Shown here piece after piece: positions 51,637-59,776 of a stretch of DNA of 64,000 nucleotides (position 1 is the stretch's first letter; every line of letters starts with the position of its first letter). The stretch is from assembly GCF_000517445.1 (NCBI RefSeq), contig NZ_CP006965.1, forward strand, positions 1 through 64,000, given 5' to 3'. Position numbers and translations under genes: made by a program. The notes below the pieces were generated by a model. The model saw only the letters and a list, made by a program, of their open reading frames with translations, had not been told where the DNA came from and ran no database searches. Origin of the DNA: Thermococcus paralvinellae (GTDB lineage Archaea > Methanobacteriota_B > Thermococci > Thermococcales > Thermococcaceae).

Positions 51637-52965
51637 ATGAGATGTCCAAACTGTGGGAGAGAGTGGATTTCTTTTGTTCCCCCTCAATGCTTATGCGATG
51701 AGCTACTTGAGATAACATATGATTACTCCAATGTTGATCCTAGAAAATGGAAAAAACGCGAGAAAGGAGTATGGAGGTATAAAGAACTTTTACCTGGAGT
51801 TAATGAGATTATAACCCTTAAAGAGGGAGGAACTCCCTTAGTGAAAGCTAAAATCGGTGAAGAGCTAAATCTTAACATCTACATAAAAGACGAGACCCGA
51901 AACCCTACGGGCTCTTTTAGGGATAGGCTTGTAACTGTTGGAGTTTCTTATGGTCTTCCTCATGCTGATAATGGTTTTATAGTTGCAAGTGATGGAAATG
52001 CTGCCGCTTCTTTGGCTGCTTACGCTGCAAGAGCTAACAAAGAGGCTTTTGTTGTAGTGCCAAGGAGGGTTGATAAAGGAAAGCTCATCCAGATGATAGC
52101 TTTTGGTGCGAAGATAATTCGCTATGGGGAGAGTGTTGATGAGTGCATAGATTATGCTAAAGAGCTTGCAAAGCTCAATGGTTTGTATGATATAACTCCA
52201 GAGAACAACATCATTGGATTAGAGGGGCAAAAAACTGTGGCTTTTGAGCTTTGGGAGGAAATAAACCCAACACATGTTGTTGTCCCAACAGGAAGCGGGA
52301 GCAACCTCTACAGCATTTATAAGGGCTTTAAAGAGCTTTGGAATATTGGAGCAATTGATGAGTTGCCGAGACTAATAGCTGTTCAGACAGATAGGTGCAA
52401 TCCAATAGCAAGTGAAATTCTGGGGATAAAACCGAAGAGAGAGTTCACGAAAGCCCTGGGGCTTTATGTTAAAGACCCAGTAAATCGAGAGAGAGCAGTT
52501 AAAGCTGTGAAAGAAAGTGGTGGAACAGCTGTTATAGTGGGGGAAGATGAACTTGACTTAGGGGAGAGGATGTTAGCCAAAGAGGGAGTTTTCGCTGAAT
52601 ATGCTTCTGCTGTTGTAGTTCCAGCTCTCCTTAAGCTCAATGATGATGGATATTTTGAAAAAGATGACAGAATTGTCCTCATTGTCACTGGCTCTGGGCT
52701 CAAGAGCTACTACATAGAGGAGCGTGAGAAGTTTTCAATTGGTGGGACCAAACTTAAAATCCTAAAATTGCTGAAAGAAAAACCTATGTATGGTTATGAA
52801 ATATGGGAGAATTTAGAAAAGCCAATGAAATATCAGGCTGTTTACCAGCACATTAAAGAGCTTGAGAGCTTAGGGCTCATAGAAGAAGCGTATAAGAAGG
52901 GAAGGAGAATTTACTATAAATTGACTGAGAAGGGACAGCGTTTATTGGAGAACTTTGAAGAATAG
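51637..52965 (+). CDS. Threonine-synthase-like protein without PLP lysine, fused to winged helix
   Basis: The 442-residue protein begins with a zinc-ribbon (MRCPNCGREW, then QCLCDE) followed by the PLP fold type II region of threonine synthase (IYIKDETRNPTGSFRDRLVT, ASDGNAAASLAAYAARANK, PTGSGSNLYSIYKGF, and VTGSGLKSY). The catalytic Lys of SFKDR is Arg95 here, so Schiff-base formation with PLP is unlikely. Residues about 370-442 form a winged-helix domain of PadR style (KILKLLKEKPMYGYEIWENL, VYQHIKELESLGLIEEAYK, GRRIYYKLTEKGQ). The combination suggests a ligand-sensing transcription regulator. The frame is intact. A canonical threonine synthase would have to be elsewhere. The ATG follows GGTGATAGC. 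Confidence 0.85.
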   Translation: MRCPNCGREWISFVPPQCLCDELLEITYDYSNVDPRKWKKREKGVWRYKELLPGVNEIITLKEGGTPLVKAKIGEELNLNIYIKDETRNPTGSFRDRLVTVGVSYGLPHADNGFIVASDGNAAASLAAYAARANKEAFVVVPRRVDKGKLIQMIAFGAKIIRYGESVDECIDYAKELAKLNGLYDITPENNIIGLEGQKTVAFELWEEINPTHVVVPTGSGSNLYSIYKGFKELWNIGAIDELPRLIAVQTDRCNPIASEILGIKPKREFTKALGLYVKDPVNRERAVKAVKESGGTAVIVGEDELDLGERMLAKEGVFAEYASAVVVPALLKLNDDGYFEKDDRIVLIVTGSGLKSYYIEEREKFSIGGTKLKILKLLKEKPMYGYEIWENLEKPMKYQAVYQHIKELESLGLIEEAYKKGRRIYYKLTEKGQRLLENFEE

Positions 52966-54096: not shown

Positions 54097-54402
54097 TCAC
54101 ATAAAGAATTCATCTCCGCTCTTGTTTTCTAGGCCAGGGTGTATATCAAATCTAACAACACCTACTGGCACTTTGCCTCCTACAGCTTCAGCGATTTTTG
54201 CTACCCCAACATGTCCAAATCCGCCGCAAAGTTCAATTGCGGCAATTCCTTCATCCACAAGTTCTTTTGCCACCTCACAAGCTTCATTATAATTTTTAAC
54301 TCCAACTACGTGGAGTTCTACAATCGGTGTTGCAACTACAGCTCTGTGCTTTTTAGGGTCTGCCTTAGGAGCTACAAATATAAAAGCAGCTTTCAACGCC
54401 AT
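54097..54402 (-). CDS. DUF6506-like small protein next to acetoin dehydrogenase genes
   Basis: The 101-residue protein (MALKAAFIFVAPKADPKKHR ... VATPIVELHVVGVKNYNEAC ... IELCGGFGHVGVAKIAEAVG) is a compact alpha/beta protein, resembling the small DUF6506 family; I am moderately sure of the name. It includes a FDIHPGLENKSG tail. GGTGGAAAG precedes the ATG at 54402, while the first 24 codons of the longer frame overlap the end of E1 beta and are not family-like. It is 32 nt downstream of the E1 beta stop, so it is the last gene of the acoA-acoB unit. Function unknown. Confidence 0.65.
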   Translation of the reverse strand: MALKAAFIFVAPKADPKKHRAVVATPIVELHVVGVKNYNEACEVAKELVDEGIAAIELCGGFGHVGVAKIAEAVGGKVPVGVVRFDIHPGLENKSGDEFFM

Positions 54403-54433
54403 CTTTCCACCACCAAAAATTAAATAGGAAAGG

Positions 54434-55417
54434 TCAAAGAATTTCTTTGACAGCTTTTTCGATCTTTTCAGCACTTGGAATCCATTCTTTTTCTAGGGCC
54501 GGACTAAATGGAATTGGGGTTGCTGGGGGAGTTACAAGTTTAACAGGAGCCTTTAAGTATTCAAATGCTTTACTTGCAGCTATTGCCGCTATATCTGTTG
54601 CAAAGCTACATCTTGGATAACCTTCATCGACAACAACTAACCTTCCAGTCTTCTTTATTGAATTGACTATTGTATCGACATCTAAAGGAACTAAAGTTCT
54701 TGGGTCAACCACTTCGACGCTTATTCCTTCTTCCTCAAGCTTCTTTGCGGCTTCTAATGCTTTGTGAACCATTGCCGCTGTTGCAACAATTGTAACATCT
54801 TTTCCTTCCTTCTTAACGTCAGCTTCTCCCAATGGGATTGTGTATGGTTCTTCAGGAACTGGTCCTTTAATCCCGTAAAGGCCTTTATGTTCTATAAAGA
54901 TTACGGGGTCGTCGTCCTCTATTGATGAAATTAGCAACCCTTTTGCGTCATAGGGTGTGGATGGCATGACCACTTTTAGTCCAGGGACATGAACAAAGAG
55001 GGCGTGAAGTGATTGTGAGTGTTGAGCTGCAGCTGCAAAGCCGGCTCCACAGGTTGTTCTTAGAACCATCGGAATTTTTGCTTTTCCACCAAACATATAC
55101 CTCATTTTTGCTGCTTGGTTGAATATCTGATCGAATGTAACTCCGAGGAAATCTATAAACATGAGTTCTACTACCGGTCTTAGAAGACCTGTAGCAGCGG
55201 CTCCTATAGCGGCTCCAATAAAACCAGCCTCACTTATTGGTGTGTCTCTTACTCTTTCGGGACCGTATTTCTCATAAAGCCCTGCAGTTGCTCCAAAAAT
55301 TCCTCCATATCTTCCTACATCTTCACCCATAATTATTACTTTTTCATCTTTTGACATTTCGTAATCCAATGCTTCGTTTATAGCTTGAGCGAAGGTAATT
55401 TCTCTCACCATTGCCAT
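54434..55417 (-). CDS. acoB: 2-oxoacid/acetoin dehydrogenase E1 component, beta subunit
   Basis: The 327-residue protein is a transketolase-like E1 beta subunit: ITFAQAINEALDYEMSKDEK, IMGEDVGRYGGIFGATAGLY, DTPISEAGFIGAAIGAAATG, LRTTCGAGFAAAAQHSQSLH and the C-terminal transketolase_C part with VVDPRTLVPLDVDTIVNSIK. It pairs with E1 alpha to decarboxylate a 2-oxoacid or cleave acetoin using thiamine diphosphate. It overlaps the E1 alpha gene by 13 nt, and GGGGGTG precedes the ATG. The presence of AcoX- and Lin0512-like genes nearby makes an acetoin-type substrate more likely than pyruvate. Confidence 0.9.
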   Translation of the reverse strand: MAMVREITFAQAINEALDYEMSKDEKVIIMGEDVGRYGGIFGATAGLYEKYGPERVRDTPISEAGFIGAAIGAAATGLLRPVVELMFIDFLGVTFDQIFNQAAKMRYMFGGKAKIPMVLRTTCGAGFAAAAQHSQSLHALFVHVPGLKVVMPSTPYDAKGLLISSIEDDDPVIFIEHKGLYGIKGPVPEEPYTIPLGEADVKKEGKDVTIVATAAMVHKALEAAKKLEEEGISVEVVDPRTLVPLDVDTIVNSIKKTGRLVVVDEGYPRCSFATDIAAIAASKAFEYLKAPVKLVTPPATPIPFSPALEKEWIPSAEKIEKAVKEIL

Positions 55418-56409
55418 ACTAACACCCCCTTAGTTGGGGTAGAAAACACGTCTTCCGTTAAATCCTCCTTTGTGGGCCATGGACTTTCCTCTGCAAATTT
55501 CACGGCTTCTTCAATTTCTTTCCTTGCTCTTTCCCAAACCTGCTCAAGTTCTTCTTTTGTAAATATTCCCTTTTCTAAGAGAACTTTCTCAAAGATCTTT
55601 ATTGGGTCTTTGTTTTCTTTCCACCATTCAATTTCTTCTTTTGACCTGTAAACTTGTGGATCACCCTCAAAGTGTCCTCTAAACCTGTAGGTCTTTACTT
55701 CTATCAGTGTTGGACCTTCCCCTCTTCTTGCCCTTTCAATGGCCTCTTTTGCAACTTCATAAACTGCTAAAACATCCTGGCCATCAACAGCAACTCCAGG
55801 AATTCCATATGCCTTTGCTCTTTCAGCGATGTCTTTAACATTTGTATGCTCTTTTGCTGGAAGGGATATTTGGTATTGGTTATTCTCACAAACAAAAACA
55901 ACTGGAAGTTTCCATATCGATGCTAGGTTCAAAGATTCATGAAAAGTCCCTTGGTTAGCTGCACCATCCCCAAAGAATGCAACTGCCACGCTATCGAGAC
56001 CATTTAGTTTTATCCCCAATGCTGCTCCCACTGCATGGGGGATTCCACCACCGACAATACCATTTGCTCCTAATTCTCCTACATCTAGATCGGCAATATG
56101 CATTGAGCCACCCTTGCCCTTACAGCTTCCCGTCTTTTTTCCAAAAAGCTCAGCCATTGAGGCTTTAATGTCTCCTCCCTTTGCTATATAGTGCCCATGT
56201 CCTCTGTGGGTGCTTGTAATAAAGTCGTCTTTTCTCAAATGGGCCATAATTCCTGCTGCAATGGCTTCTTCTCCAGTGTATAGGTGTACAAAGCCTGGAA
56301 CTTTTCCTTGAGCAAAGAGTTCTGCTACTCTTTCTTCATGAACCCTTATCCTAACCATAGTCTCGTACATCCACAAGAGAGTCTCTTTTGGGATTTCTTC
56401 CACTGGCAT
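55405..56409 (-). CDS. acoA: 2-oxoacid/acetoin dehydrogenase E1 component, alpha subunit
   Basis: The 334-residue protein has the E1 alpha thiamine-diphosphate motif (AVAFFGDGAANQGTFHESLN followed by CENNQYQISLPAKEH), and FVHLYTGEEAIAAGIMAHLR, HRGHGHYIAKGGD and FRGHFEGDPQVYR around the active site. The start ATG at 56409 is preceded by GGAGGGAAAC; upstream in-frame codons to 56475 lie in the intergenic promoter region. It begins a minus-strand operon with E1 beta and the DUF6506-like gene, divergent from the lipoyl/E2 operon. The shared 150-nt region holds TATA-like elements for both directions. Confidence 0.9.
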   Translation of the reverse strand: MPVEEIPKETLLWMYETMVRIRVHEERVAELFAQGKVPGFVHLYTGEEAIAAGIMAHLRKDDFITSTHRGHGHYIAKGGDIKASMAELFGKKTGSCKGKGGSMHIADLDVGELGANGIVGGGIPHAVGAALGIKLNGLDSVAVAFFGDGAANQGTFHESLNLASIWKLPVVFVCENNQYQISLPAKEHTNVKDIAERAKAYGIPGVAVDGQDVLAVYEVAKEAIERARRGEGPTLIEVKTYRFRGHFEGDPQVYRSKEEIEWWKENKDPIKIFEKVLLEKGIFTKEELEQVWERARKEIEEAVKFAEESPWPTKEDLTEDVFSTPTKGVLVWQW

Positions 56410-56559
56410 TTCGTTTCCCTCCAGTAGGTTTAGATTATACCCAAGAATAGATTTTACCAATGTCATTATCTGCAAAATTTATATATACGTTTTTCGCAAG
56501 AATTATATACAAATCACGAGTCAGTAACCTAAGAAAATTGTTATTTCGAGGTGACAACA
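56410..56559. promoter_or_regulatory. Divergent promoter of the acetoin-dehydrogenase-like cluster
   Basis: Between acoA and the lipoyl gene there are 150 nt. On the minus strand a TATA-like TATATATAAAT (about 56474-56486) should direct transcription of acoA. On the plus strand AATTATATACAAA (about 56501-56513) should direct the lipoyl gene, leaving a short leader with GAGGTGACAAC before the ATG. No clear palindromic operator was seen. Confidence 0.45.
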
Positions 56560-56805
56560 ATGAAAAAAGTAAATGTTATCATGCCAAAATTTGGTCTAAC
56601 AATGACGAAAGGAACAATAGTAGAATGGAAAAAGAAAGTAGGTGAAAGAGTAGAAAAAGGAGAAGTTATTGCAACAGTAGAGTCAGAAAAAATAACTGGG
56701 GAAGTGGAATCCCCAGCAAGCGGTATTTTAGTTGAGATTTTACATGATGTTGGAGATGAAGTTCCTATAGGAGAACCTATTGCAATTATTGAAGTGGAAG
56801 AGTGA
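56560..56805 (+). CDS. Stand-alone lipoyl domain protein
   Basis: The 81-residue protein is a complete biotinyl/lipoyl domain: MPKFGLTMTKGTIVEWKKKV, then GEVIATVESEKITGEVESPA with the lipoylated Lys44 in ESEKI, and GILVEILHDVGDEVPIGEPI. Normally this module is the N-terminus of E2, but here it is a separate gene, ending 5 nt before the E2 core. GAGGTGACAAC precedes the ATG at 56560; a GTG at 56551 overlaps that site. It would be the swinging arm of the complex, modified by the LplA encoded at 58979. Confidence 0.92.
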   Translation: MKKVNVIMPKFGLTMTKGTIVEWKKKVGERVEKGEVIATVESEKITGEVESPASGILVEILHDVGDEVPIGEPIAIIEVEE

Positions 56806-56810
56806 TAGTG

Positions 56811-57635
56811 ATGGAGAATATTAATGAACAAATTAGGATAATAGCAGAGCAATATGACATAGATTTGTCTAAGATAAAGGGTTCTGGACCAAATGGAGAA
56901 GTTACCCTCCACGACCTTGAAGCTTACATAAAAGAGCACTACTTTCCAAAAGTGAAGCAAGAAGTCAAGATTTTTGGAATTAGAAAGGTTATAGGGGATA
57001 GGCTTTCCAGAAGCTACAGAGAAGCAGTTCATGTAACTCTTAACATGGAGGTTGAGATGGACAAGATTATTGAAATAAGAGAAAAATTAGCAAAAAAACT
57101 TGAGAAGAAACCCTCATACACTGTTTTAATGCTTAAGTGTATTGCAAAAGCAATTAGAGATTTCATAGAGATAAATGCAACAATGGAAGGCAACAAGATA
57201 ATGATTTACGACAATATAAACATCAACATAGCTGTTGATAGTCCAATAGGTCTTATCACACCTGTTATTAGAGATGTGGACAAAAAAAGCTTGGAAGAAC
57301 TTTTAAGTGATTATCAAGATTTGGTTGAGAGGGCCAAAAAGGGCATTCTCAAGGAGAAAGACTTTGTTGGAGGGACTTTTACAGTGACAAACCTTGGCAT
57401 GTTTGGAATTGATTCTTTCACCCCAATAATTAATCCTCCACAGATAGCAATTTTAGGACTTAACAGAATTGTGAAAAAACCTGTAATAAAAGATGGGGAG
57501 ATTAAGATTTGCAACGTCATGAATCTATCTTTAAGTTTTGATCATAGGGCAATAGATGGAGCTCCAGCGGCTAGATTTCTACAAAAGGTTAAGCACTACC
57601 TGGAAAACCCAGAGGAAGTGTTTGAAGTTGAATGA
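56811..57635 (+). CDS. acoC: E2 acyltransferase core (peripheral-subunit-binding domain + catalytic domain)
   Basis: The 274-residue protein has a peripheral-subunit-binding domain at residues about 5-40 (IRIIAEQYDIDLSKIKGSGP, NGEVTLHDLEAYI) and the catalytic domain with MMEGNKIMIYDN-type strands, GGTFTVTNLGMFGIDSFTPI and the active-site HRAIDG in LSFDHRAIDGAPAARFLQ. It lacks the N-terminal lipoyl domain and linker of ordinary E2 proteins (about 400 residues), which are provided by the preceding gene. The ATG at 56811 is the most probable start; an in-frame GTG at 56802 overlaps the previous stop. It transfers the acyl group to CoA. Confidence 0.92.
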   Translation: MENINEQIRIIAEQYDIDLSKIKGSGPNGEVTLHDLEAYIKEHYFPKVKQEVKIFGIRKVIGDRLSRSYREAVHVTLNMEVEMDKIIEIREKLAKKLEKKPSYTVLMLKCIAKAIRDFIEINATMEGNKIMIYDNININIAVDSPIGLITPVIRDVDKKSLEELLSDYQDLVERAKKGILKEKDFVGGTFTVTNLGMFGIDSFTPIINPPQIAILGLNRIVKKPVIKDGEIKICNVMNLSLSFDHRAIDGAPAARFLQKVKHYLENPEEVFEVE

Positions 57636-58005
57636 GTGGAAAAGATATGTCATAGAAATTGGTATGGGAATTGATCAGCATGGCCAAGACTCAACAAAGG
57701 CCGCTATAAAAGCAGTTAAAGACGCTATAAGTAGAGTTTGTACAGTTGGATTGCTTGAGTTGTTTGAGCTTGATTTTGAAAGAGATGTAAGAGTCGAGGT
57801 TATTATAGGCGGTCCATATCCAGAAAAAGTCGATGTTGAAAAAGTTCGTAAGGCTATTCCACTAAAATGTGAGAAGGTCATTAACGTTGTTAATGGCGGA
57901 TTAAAAGGCCCAGGGATAGCCCTTGAAGAGTTTGGAGATAAGACGAACGAGATGTTAATAGCAGTAGCATTTATTACGATTTATGTAAGGGGAGAGCACA
58001 AATGA
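57622..58005 (+). CDS. Lin0512-family protein
   Basis: The protein of about 127 residues carries the Lin0512 signature close to its N-terminus (KRYVIEIGMGIDQHGQDSTK, then AAIKAVKDAISRVCTVGLLE), followed by VRVEVIIGGPYPEKVDVEKV and GLKGPGIALEEFGDKTNEM. No activity is known; family members occur beside acetoin-type dehydrogenase genes. The likely start is a TTG at 57622, preceded by GAGGAAG and overlapping the E2 stop by 14 nt; a further TTG at 57628 is an alternative. The 3' end overlaps acoX by 4 nt, so the genes are coupled. Confidence 0.75.
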   Translation: MKLNEWKRYVIEIGMGIDQHGQDSTKAAIKAVKDAISRVCTVGLLELFELDFERDVRVEVIIGGPYPEKVDVEKVRKAIPLKCEKVINVVNGGLKGPGIALEEFGDKTNEMLIAVAFITIYVRGEHK

Positions 58006-58982
58006 AAAAAGCGACCGTTGGGATTATTGCAAATCCGGAATCTGGAAGAGATATAAGAAGATTAATTGCTCATGCAAGTGTTTTTGACAACATGGAAAAG
58101 GTGAGCATAGTTAAAAGATTATTAATGATACTTCAAAGCTTTGGTGTTGAAAAAGTCTTAGCTATGCCAGAGACATTTGGGATTGTTCCAGCGGCAATGC
58201 ACTTAATAGAAGAGCATTTGAATTTGGAAGTTGAGTTTCTTCCTATAAAGGTCTTTGGAACTTGGAGGGACACTTATGAAGCAACAAAGCTAATGAAAGA
58301 TAAAGTGAGTGTCATAATTGTTATTGGAGGGGATGGGACTAATAGAGTAGTAGCAAAAGTCTGTGGGGATACACCAATAATGCCAATCTCAACAGGAACT
58401 AACAACGTTTTCCCATACATGATAGAAGCAACAATAGCAGCTGAAGCAGTTGTAGCAATAGCTACGGGTATCGTAAAGCCTGAGGAAGGAACTTACAAAG
58501 CTAAAAGGGTCGAAATTTTTGAAGAGGGTGAGCTAAAAGATATAGCGTTGATAGACGCTGCTGCAACCACACACTCTTTTGTTGGTTCGAGAGCTGTTTG
58601 GAAGCCTGAATATCTAAAGGAAATTGTTGTGAGCATATGTTCGCCTTCAAATATTGGACTAAGCTCAATTCCGGGGATAATAAAAGAGATACGTGAAGAT
58701 GAGGATTTGGGTTTATATGCTGAGCTTGGAGAGGGAAAGAAGATAAGGGCACCAATAGCTCCTGGAGTTTTAAGAGAAGTTAGTATTAAGAGCTATAGAA
58801 CCTTAGAGCTCGGAGAAGAAGTTGAAATAAAAACTACACCCTCTTTATTTGCTTTGGATGGTGAGAGAGAAGCTGAAGTAAAGGGAGAAGTTACAGCAAG
58901 AGTTACGAGAAATGGACCGAGGGTTATAGATTATCAGAAGACACTGAAGATTGCAGCTGAGAGGGGATTCTTTGACGGCTAA
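58002..58982 (+). CDS. acoX: AcoX-like ATP-NAD kinase-fold protein
   Basis: The 326-residue protein has the NAD-kinase fold: VGIIANPESGRDIRRLIAHA, the GGDGTNR motif (IIVIGGDGTNRVVAKVCGD) and PISTGTNNVFP. These match AcoX, encoded in bacterial acetoin-catabolism operons, where its substrate is unresolved. The C-terminal beta-rich half (AELGEGKKIRAPIAPGVL) is as in the family. The ATG at 58002 overlaps the preceding stop (ATGA) with GGGGAG upstream. The 3' end overlaps the convergent lipoate ligase gene by 4 nt. Confidence 0.88.
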   Translation: MKKATVGIIANPESGRDIRRLIAHASVFDNMEKVSIVKRLLMILQSFGVEKVLAMPETFGIVPAAMHLIEEHLNLEVEFLPIKVFGTWRDTYEATKLMKDKVSVIIVIGGDGTNRVVAKVCGDTPIMPISTGTNNVFPYMIEATIAAEAVVAIATGIVKPEEGTYKAKRVEIFEEGELKDIALIDAAATTHSFVGSRAVWKPEYLKEIVVSICSPSNIGLSSIPGIIKEIREDEDLGLYAELGEGKKIRAPIAPGVLREVSIKSYRTLELGEEVEIKTTPSLFALDGEREAEVKGEVTARVTRNGPRVIDYQKTLKIAAERGFFDG

Positions 58983-59776
58983 CTTTCTAGAATCTCATTT
59001 ATTTCCTTTTCAATTTCTTTTTCATCTATTTTAGGTGGCACTTTGAAGTTCCATTCGTCTTTCGAGTACTTTTCTTTGAGAAGAATATTGGCAATGTTGA
59101 GTTCCTCCTTTCTTGGCTCATCAAAATAGTAATCACTCATGAGTATTTTTGAATAGCTGGAGATTAAGGCATTCATAATTTCATCAACACTAACATTTCC
59201 AAGAAATGATGAAAGGTTGGCAACCCGGTATTTTACGGGATCTATTGACGGTTTAATAGTTTTTGGAATTTTCAAAAGAAGGTAAAGCATTTTTAAGTCT
59301 GAATTTACCAAAATTGAACCATGCAAAAACAATACAGCCCATTTTATGCTTGCTGCAGTGCCAGAAACTTTTCTTTCGTTCACTACGATGTCATTAGTGT
59401 TCCTCACATATGCATTAACTCCTAGCTTTTTTAGAGCAAGCAACGTGCCTTTTAGGAGTTCATTATAAAGATAAGAGATTGGGAACTTAACGTCTCTTTT
59501 TATTACCAAAGAATAATTGACACAGCCAATATCATGATAAACAGTTCCTCCTCCGCTGAAGCGTCGAACTATCGGGATTTTTCTCTCCCTAGCCACTAAA
59601 AGATTGATGTCTTCCTCGGGATTTCTAAAGTACCCTAAAATCAGAGCTTTTTCATTTTTCCATATCCTTAACGTATCATCAACTAAATCCTTTGACCTAG
59701 CTCTCGCTAAAGCTTCTTCAAAAGCCAAGTTTAGATAGGGATTCTTTGGAGTTTCATAAGTGAGTATTCTTAGCAT
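58979..59776 (-). CDS. lplA: Lipoate-protein ligase A family protein
   Basis: The 265-residue protein shows the lipoate-protein ligase/transferase pattern: NLAFEEALARARSKDLVDDT, the signature RRFSGGGTVYHDIGCVNYSL, and NDIVVNERKVSGTAASIKWA with the catalytic Lys in RKVSG. It attaches lipoate to the Lys of the lipoyl domain encoded 2 kb away. A C-terminal part (IDEKEIEKEINEILES) completes the protein. The gene is convergent with acoX. No lipoyl synthase is present in this window, so lipoate must be taken up or made elsewhere. Confidence 0.9.
   Translation of the reverse strand: MLRILTYETPKNPYLNLAFEEALARARSKDLVDDTLRIWKNEKALILGYFRNPEEDINLLVARERKIPIVRRFSGGGTVYHDIGCVNYSLVIKRDVKFPISYLYNELLKGTLLALKKLGVNAYVRNTNDIVVNERKVSGTAASIKWAVLFLHGSILVNSDLKMLYLLLKIPKTIKPSIDPVKYRVANLSSFLGNVSVDEIMNALISSYSKILMSDYYFDEPRKEELNIANILLKEKYSKDEWNFKVPPKIDEKEIEKEINEILES

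Follow-up and report, generated by a model that had tools for sequence, protein, structure and literature searches.

What does a lipoate-dependent dehydrogenase cluster do in an archaeon in which no E3 is found, when E3 (dihydrolipoamide dehydrogenase) is needed to recycle the arm of the textbook E1-E2-E3 machines? The question is raised by an eight-gene cluster at 54097-59776 of the first 64,000 nucleotides of Thermococcus paralvinellae contig NZ_CP006965.1, the stretch of DNA analysed here and called the window. We give a probability of roughly 0.55 to the reading that these genes encode an acetoin-dehydrogenase-type (AcoABC-like) multienzyme complex, with its parts separated and its lipoyl arm re-oxidised without a classical E3. 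In the sequence we find all the parts with their key residues, the lipoylation machinery, a detached arm, purifying selection and no E3. The substrate, the assembly of the complex, the re-oxidation route and the roles of AcoX, Lin0512 and DUF6506 are what we infer. The window genome, 99.9% complete, consists of one contig of 1,957,742 bases, and genome-level statements are based on family searches.

A check of open reading frames and Pfam domains found all eight genes intact, in the order and on the strands first proposed by a sequence-only reading, with Pfam matches far over cut-off. The catalytic residues of E1 and E2, whose loss had been set beforehand as a refuting point, are intact by alignment. 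The E1 alpha gene starts at ATG 56409 with GGAGG ahead of it, E2 may start at GTG 56802 or ATG 56811, and the convergent AcoX and LplA genes overlap by 4 bp. Pairwise ratios of nonsynonymous to synonymous substitution rates (dN/dS) against three relatives are 0.02-0.18 for every gene of the cluster. This indicates strong purifying selection, so the operon is no relic. That it is a decaying, unused leftover of a transferred operon is scarcely credible: its patchy distribution and the accessory genes missing from some genomes would suit decay, but every reading frame is intact within this dN/dS range, the promoter region is conserved and modules have been swapped between lineages.

Upstream of both E1 alpha and the lipoyl gene, and flanked by divergent TATA-like boxes, lies a TTTCGCAA element (window 56470-56520). 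It is kept in about nine loci in an alignment of 15 Thermococcaceae loci, and is a possible shared operator. No regulator gene was found within the cluster, to which the search for an AcoR-type regulator was confined.

The E1 subunits point to the acetoin type. E1 alpha keeps the thiamine diphosphate motif GDGAANQ...N, MHIADLDVGELGANGIVGGG and GHFEGD, all common to bacterial AcoX loci, and retains the RGH/GHFEGD loop together with the MHIAD..GxLGANGIVG stretch. E1 beta can be aligned from end to end with solved E1 beta subunits and clusters with proteobacterial and Chloroflexota aco-type E1 (tree support 99/94); by motifs and tree the pair belongs to the AcoA/AcoB-type, thiamine diphosphate-dependent E1 proteins. 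In E2 the active site DHRAIDG is present, in agreement with the required HxxxDG.

The PDB chains closest to E1 beta, on the other hand, are E1 beta subunits of 2-oxoacid or pyruvate dehydrogenase (PDH). The cluster could encode a true 2-oxoacid dehydrogenase, acting on pyruvate or branched-chain substrates and kept alongside the ferredoxin-dependent enzymes, with AcoX and Lin0512 as general helpers. PDH and branched-chain 2-oxoacid dehydrogenase are the nearest solved E1 structures and NCBIfam names tend toward PDH; the extra E1 pairs of some relatives have differing signatures, so several substrates may be served. We consider this unlikely, since STHRGHGH, MHIAD..GxLGANGIVG and GHFEGD of E1 alpha are common to AcoX-linked E1s, one of them in a locus with a butanediol dehydrogenase, the MHIAD/LGANG form is absent from human PDH, and the nearest-structure result is biased, as the PDB may contain few acetoin enzymes. 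Judged from sequence, an acetoin-type complex with acetoin as its predicted substrate is more likely than a 2-oxoacid dehydrogenase, because of the AcoX-linked bacterial loci, their AcoR-like regulators, the butanediol dehydrogenase and the parallels with VOC proteins and Pelobacter.

An AcoX scan covered 84,980 genomes, and we used its best 80 loci. Most belong to Bacillota, Chloroflexota and Desulfobacterota-type bacteria, with many anaerobes among them, and 78 lie outside Thermococcaceae. E1 alpha and E1 beta are both linked to AcoX in 59 of the 78, and 37 of these 59 also have Lin0512 or DUF6506; DUF6506 is found in 24 of the 78. The window AcoX shares 32-40% identity with AcoX proteins from plasmid aco-type loci of bacteria and haloarchaea, where they lie next to E1/E2 genes, and about 40-50% with the best bacterial ones. 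The Paracoccus locus also carries 2,3-butanediol dehydrogenase and a sigma-54 activator, and in Sporomusa ovata a GAF/sigma-54/Fis regulator (AcoR-like) is directly upstream.

The bacterial acoXABC/acoABCL clusters (Pelobacter carbinolicus, Paracoccus denitrificans L118, Thermoanaerobacter wiegelii L149, Sporomusa ovata L138; L numbers are our locus labels) share with the archaeal one E1 alpha and beta of the same signature, AcoX, Lin0512 and sometimes DUF6506. A CAT-type E2 is shared with the anaerobes, and some have a lipoate ligase or synthase nearby. They differ in having the lipoyl domain fused to E2, whereas the archaeal arm is a separate protein. An E3 (acoL) may occur in bacteria, with none found in the window genome, and the AcoR regulator common there is missing within the archaeal cluster. 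Several relatives have a methylmalonyl-CoA-epimerase-type VOC protein (TIGR03081, 3e-14) between E1 beta and DUF6506, which is not in the window. In P. carbinolicus the acetoin cluster, most of which is upregulated on acetoin, includes acoX as well as a gene of the methylmalonyl-CoA-epimerase family (PMC3543383). At L067:4132-5806, L068, L069, L071 and L085 the VOC gene is accompanied, in this same interval, by a membrane protein with no Pfam match; the window cluster is without both.

As for the accessory proteins, the AlphaFold2 model of AcoX has a mean predicted local distance difference test score of 89.5 and matches NAD kinases and diacylglycerol-kinase-type lipid kinases, the best PDB match being an NAD kinase (E 8e-11, template-modelling score ~0.5). 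AcoX retains the invariant GGDGT and DGERE motifs. It probably acts either as a kinase of small molecules or as a helper that binds nucleotides. Lin0512 matches PDB entry 3c8l, a “FtsZ-like protein of unknown function” (1.6e-21), and a match of DUF6506 to aldose reductase (E 0.009) was judged to be chance. In the library searched we found no paper on AcoX in Thermococcales and none naming Lin0512. AcoX, Lin0512 and DUF6506 gain a new, compact context here.

In the proposed reaction, E1 alpha/beta with bound thiamine diphosphate would split acetoin or a related alpha-hydroxyketone and hand the acetyl group to the free-standing lipoyl protein. The E2 core would then transfer it to CoA, giving acetyl-CoA and acetaldehyde, both of which would be usable in normal Thermococcales energy metabolism. 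Several results weigh against this. Acetolactate synthase was not found over cut-off in the window genome and no butanediol or acetoin gene was seen within the cluster, so acetoin would need an external source or a side reaction; endogenous acetoin through acetolactate synthase was rejected. NCBIfam assigns the beta subunit of E1 to PRK09212, a subfamily named “pyruvate dehydrogenase E1 beta”, and the alpha subunit scores 390.6, just under the TIGR03182 PDH cut-off of 393.85. In favour of the proposal, acetoin formation at 70-80 C has been reported for P. furiosus (PMC5658578). Acetoin or a related ketone had been suggested as substrate from the start; the acetoin type of complex is supported, while homology and context are what point to acetoin itself.

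For lipoylation, the cluster does have its own lipoate ligase. LplA keeps RRFSGGGTVYHD and KVSGTA and is 37% identical to the second LplA of the genome (NF053750, 524 bits, cut-off 480). The latter lies outside the window and adjoins LipS1 (NF053742, 355 bits, cut-off 230), and LipS2 is encoded elsewhere in the genome (NF053743, 417 bits, cut-off 270). The earlier statement that lipoyl synthase is absent is thus true for the window only: a LipS1/LipS2 pathway with linked LplA is present at genome level, over curated cut-offs. Of the 94 Thermococcaceae genomes, 90 have a LipS1 that passes its cut-off, and biochemical work has proven the LipS1/LipS2 pair of Thermococcus kodakarensis to be a lipoyl synthase (PMC9585515, PMC12442378). 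The cluster LplA and the genome-encoded LipS1/LipS2 would provide the lipoyl group. Since the window genome also encodes GcvH (H protein), lipoylation is not bound to the cluster alone, and the H protein raises the same question of arm re-oxidation.

We observed that E3 is missing well beyond the window. No protein passes the TIGR01350 cut-off in any of the 94 Thermococcaceae genomes, nor in the three Thermoproteota metagenome-assembled genomes with the same cluster, which may be incomplete. The absence first noted in the window is therefore borne out for its genome and extended to the family. The best score against the E3 model in the window genome is about 157 bits, compared to a cut-off of 408.8. 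The E3-type dimerisation domain (PF02852) is present in only two of its proteins, both CoA-disulfide-reductase/NADH-oxidase-like, with the single-cysteine active sites PCGVPY and PCALPF and not the CxxxxC of E3. As the sole carriers of that domain, these two flavoproteins (G000:C1:82 kb and 995 kb) might be undeclared E3s; this is a long shot, given their active sites, the low model score and the similar-scoring proteins in genomes without E2.

We also rejected an E3 hidden elsewhere in the family. The full-length high scorers (~315-402 bits) inspected in nine genomes fall into two types: MerA-like proteins with a vicinal CC at the C-terminus, and GGTCALRGCDPKK reductases, which lack the His-Pro-Thr end of E3. 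Neither the MerA-like nor the GGTCALRGC reductases are found in the window genome, and high scorers co-occur with E2 weakly (7/20 vs 10/74, Fisher p=0.045). Mercuric-reductase-like genes with the C-terminal CC were seen in several Thermococcaceae (L210, L211, L215, L216, L218), some near ArsR and metal-ATPase-like reading frames. They come close to the E3 model in score, and annotation could mistake them for lipoamide dehydrogenase.

The arm would most likely be re-oxidised by a thioredoxin-reductase/protein-disulfide system with NAD(P)+. Thioredoxin reductase is present in the window genome (395 bits, cut-off 343), and is our leading guess by analogy with the atypical lipoamide dehydrogenases of anaerobic glycine users; that its gene is unlinked to the cluster counts against it. 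Alternatively, the complex may mainly yield reducing power, its arm being oxidised by sulfur or polysulfide, or by an OsmC-type lipoyl-dependent peroxidase, and not by a flavoprotein. OsmC/Ohr proteins can take lipoyl groups as reductant, these organisms are sulfur-reducing as a group, no family genome has an E3, and OsmC with both cysteines adjoins the cluster in several relatives (L078:11964-12410 and others). OsmC is not in the window-genome cluster and thioredoxin reductase is available in the genome, which makes this alternative improbable. In the AcoX clusters of Sporomusa (L138:15607-19139) and Syntrophomonadaceae (L129), two GcvH-like carriers and a FAD-oxidase/CCG Fe-S pair follow, a possible E3-independent oxidant of bacterial lipoyl arms. 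An HdrB/GlcF-like Fe-S partner as in Sporomusa is ruled out for the window genome, which has no PF02754 (CCG) protein.

Two features of the arm and of E2 accompany the lack of E3. The predicted lipoylated lysine lies in VESEKITGEVE (the ESEK lysine is kept), and the lipoyl domain is a separate reading frame in all Thermococcaceae and Thermoproteota loci with the gene on the contig, whereas it is fused to E2 in all other AcoX loci examined with an E2. Like GcvH and LbpA, it would be a free-standing carrier that visits its enzymes and is lipoylated by LplA and LipS1/S2; it differs in being a typical E2-type lipoyl domain (PF00364), not GcvH-like, with E1/E2 as partners. The 2-oxoacid dehydrogenase complexes of aerobic archaea (Thermoplasma, haloarchaea) share E1 alpha/beta, the lipoyl domain and a CAT-type E2, but have fused E2s and an E3. 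The haloarchaeal AcoX-linked loci L117 and L120 are fused as well, and very distant from the window cluster.

The second feature is in the peripheral-subunit domain of E2. One position is Glu in 21/21 Thermococcaceae sequences (some redundant copies) and Arg or Lys in 57/63 other matches, and the net charge of the domain averages -5.7 in Thermococcaceae vs -0.1 in the others. The p value for this contrast is 7e-11, but the relatedness of the sequences means that the test is not independent. Two Thermoproteota E2s have a domain that has ceased to match the motif. The acidic shift fits an E3 docking surface that has been lost: in Geobacillus PDH, E3 is bound by the corresponding basic residues. 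Both the detached arm and the acidic domain look new.

Next to the cluster, most Thermococcaceae that have it carry a second set of E1 alpha, E1 beta and lipoyl genes (L069-L080, L084; e.g. L078:12465-14717). Its E1 signature differs (GKGGHMHLFD...SCSGIVG), and it looks like a separate acquisition, because its E1 beta is sister to Chloroflexota (tree support 100/100). In one relative, G089, the segment with E1 beta, E1 alpha and the lipoyl gene has diverged strongly from that of the window (dS, the synonymous divergence, 1.2-2.6; L067:5781-8173 vs window 54434-56805), while DUF6506, E2, Lin0512, AcoX, LplA and both flanks are close to it (dS 0.2-0.45). The G089 E1 alpha and lipoyl gene are nearer to G093 (dS 0.63 and 0.38). 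From these divergences we infer that the core of E2, AcoX and LplA may stay constant while E1 and its lipoyl carrier are exchanged together, as a module that sets specificity. We give somewhat less than even odds to a tentative proposal: a lipoyl complex of hyperthermophilic archaea that is naturally E3-independent, in which a diffusible arm pairs with interchangeable E1 modules on one E2 core, E3 docking is lost and re-oxidation is of a non-E3 kind.

In terms of distribution, E2 is found in 20 of 94 Thermococcaceae genomes and the gene order recurs, complete or truncated where a contig ends, in 19 other genomes of the family. Strong matches to AcoX were seen in 21 of the 115 genomes of the phylum that were searched, all 21 of them Thermococcaceae. 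The cluster is therefore unusual in Thermococcales, as the sequence-only reading had it; it is not universal and never occurs with E3. In the AcoX tree one clade (100/98) unites Thermococcaceae (100/99) with Thermoproteota, its neighbours being Halanaerobium (99/93) and other Bacillota (92/88), and the E2 and E1 beta trees have well-supported archaeal clades amid bacterial sequences. This suggests that anaerobic bacteria passed on the cluster and that losses followed. Vertical descent of AcoX within the archaea, with one all-archaeal clade, is not rejected by the approximately unbiased (AU) test (p-AU 0.334); transfer, for which E1/E2 trees had been proposed earlier, is thus likely, not proven.

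Borziak et al. 2014 (PMC3904984) had already recorded E2 from three species of Thermococcus and LplA throughout Thermococcales, in passages that treat lipoylation of the 2-oxoacid dehydrogenase complex E2 as a marker of aerobic life and leave acetoin unmentioned. The archaeal variant with a detached lipoyl arm and no E3 looks new. An anaerobic, hyperthermophilic lineage retains E1, E2, the lipoyl arm, the ligase and lipoyl synthase under selection without E3, which is a caution against using lipoylation genes as an aerobiosis marker. Thermococcus is therefore a genetically tractable setting to find other re-oxidants of the lipoyl arm.

Table. Features of the cluster, with window positions and the matches that identify them.
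Feature	Position	Strand	Evidence
DUF6506 protein, 101 amino acids	54097..54402	-	PF20116 6.6e-42
E1 beta, 325 amino acids	54434..55411	-	PF02779 (Transket_pyr) 5e-46; PF02780 (Transketolase_C) 5.8e-43
E1 alpha, acetoin-type, 334 amino acids	55405..56409	-	PF00676 (E1_dh) 1.6e-98
Divergent promoter region	56410..56559	.	TATA-like boxes on each strand around TTTCGCAA element
Stand-alone lipoyl protein, 81 amino acids	56560..56805	+	PF00364 2.4e-19
E2 acyltransferase core with E3_binding-like acidic domain	56802..57635	+	PF00198 (2-oxoacid_dh) 6.5e-82; PF02817 2.5e-7
Lin0512-family protein, 117 amino acids	57652..58005	+	PF09585 1.5e-32; TIGR02058 above cut-off
AcoX-like protein, 326 amino acids	58002..58982	+	NAD_kinase/DAGK match 3.5e-11
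Single-domain lipoate-protein ligase LplA, 265 amino acids	58979..59776	-	PF21948 (LplA-B_cat) 2.7e-50

Lastly, some neighbouring genes were observed. One genome has, just upstream of the cluster, a TRAP-type transporter together with an HTH_10 regulator and another E1 alpha/beta pair (L070:35-5458), which hints that a small organic acid or ketone is taken up. PCC-domain, PEP-utilizer-like (PRK08296 type) and UPF0261 (Tm-1-like) proteins recur together beside the cluster (L070:12119-15980, also L072 and L077). In the window itself, positions 51637-52965 encode a threonine synthase with a fused C-terminal PadR-like winged-helix domain (NF004170).

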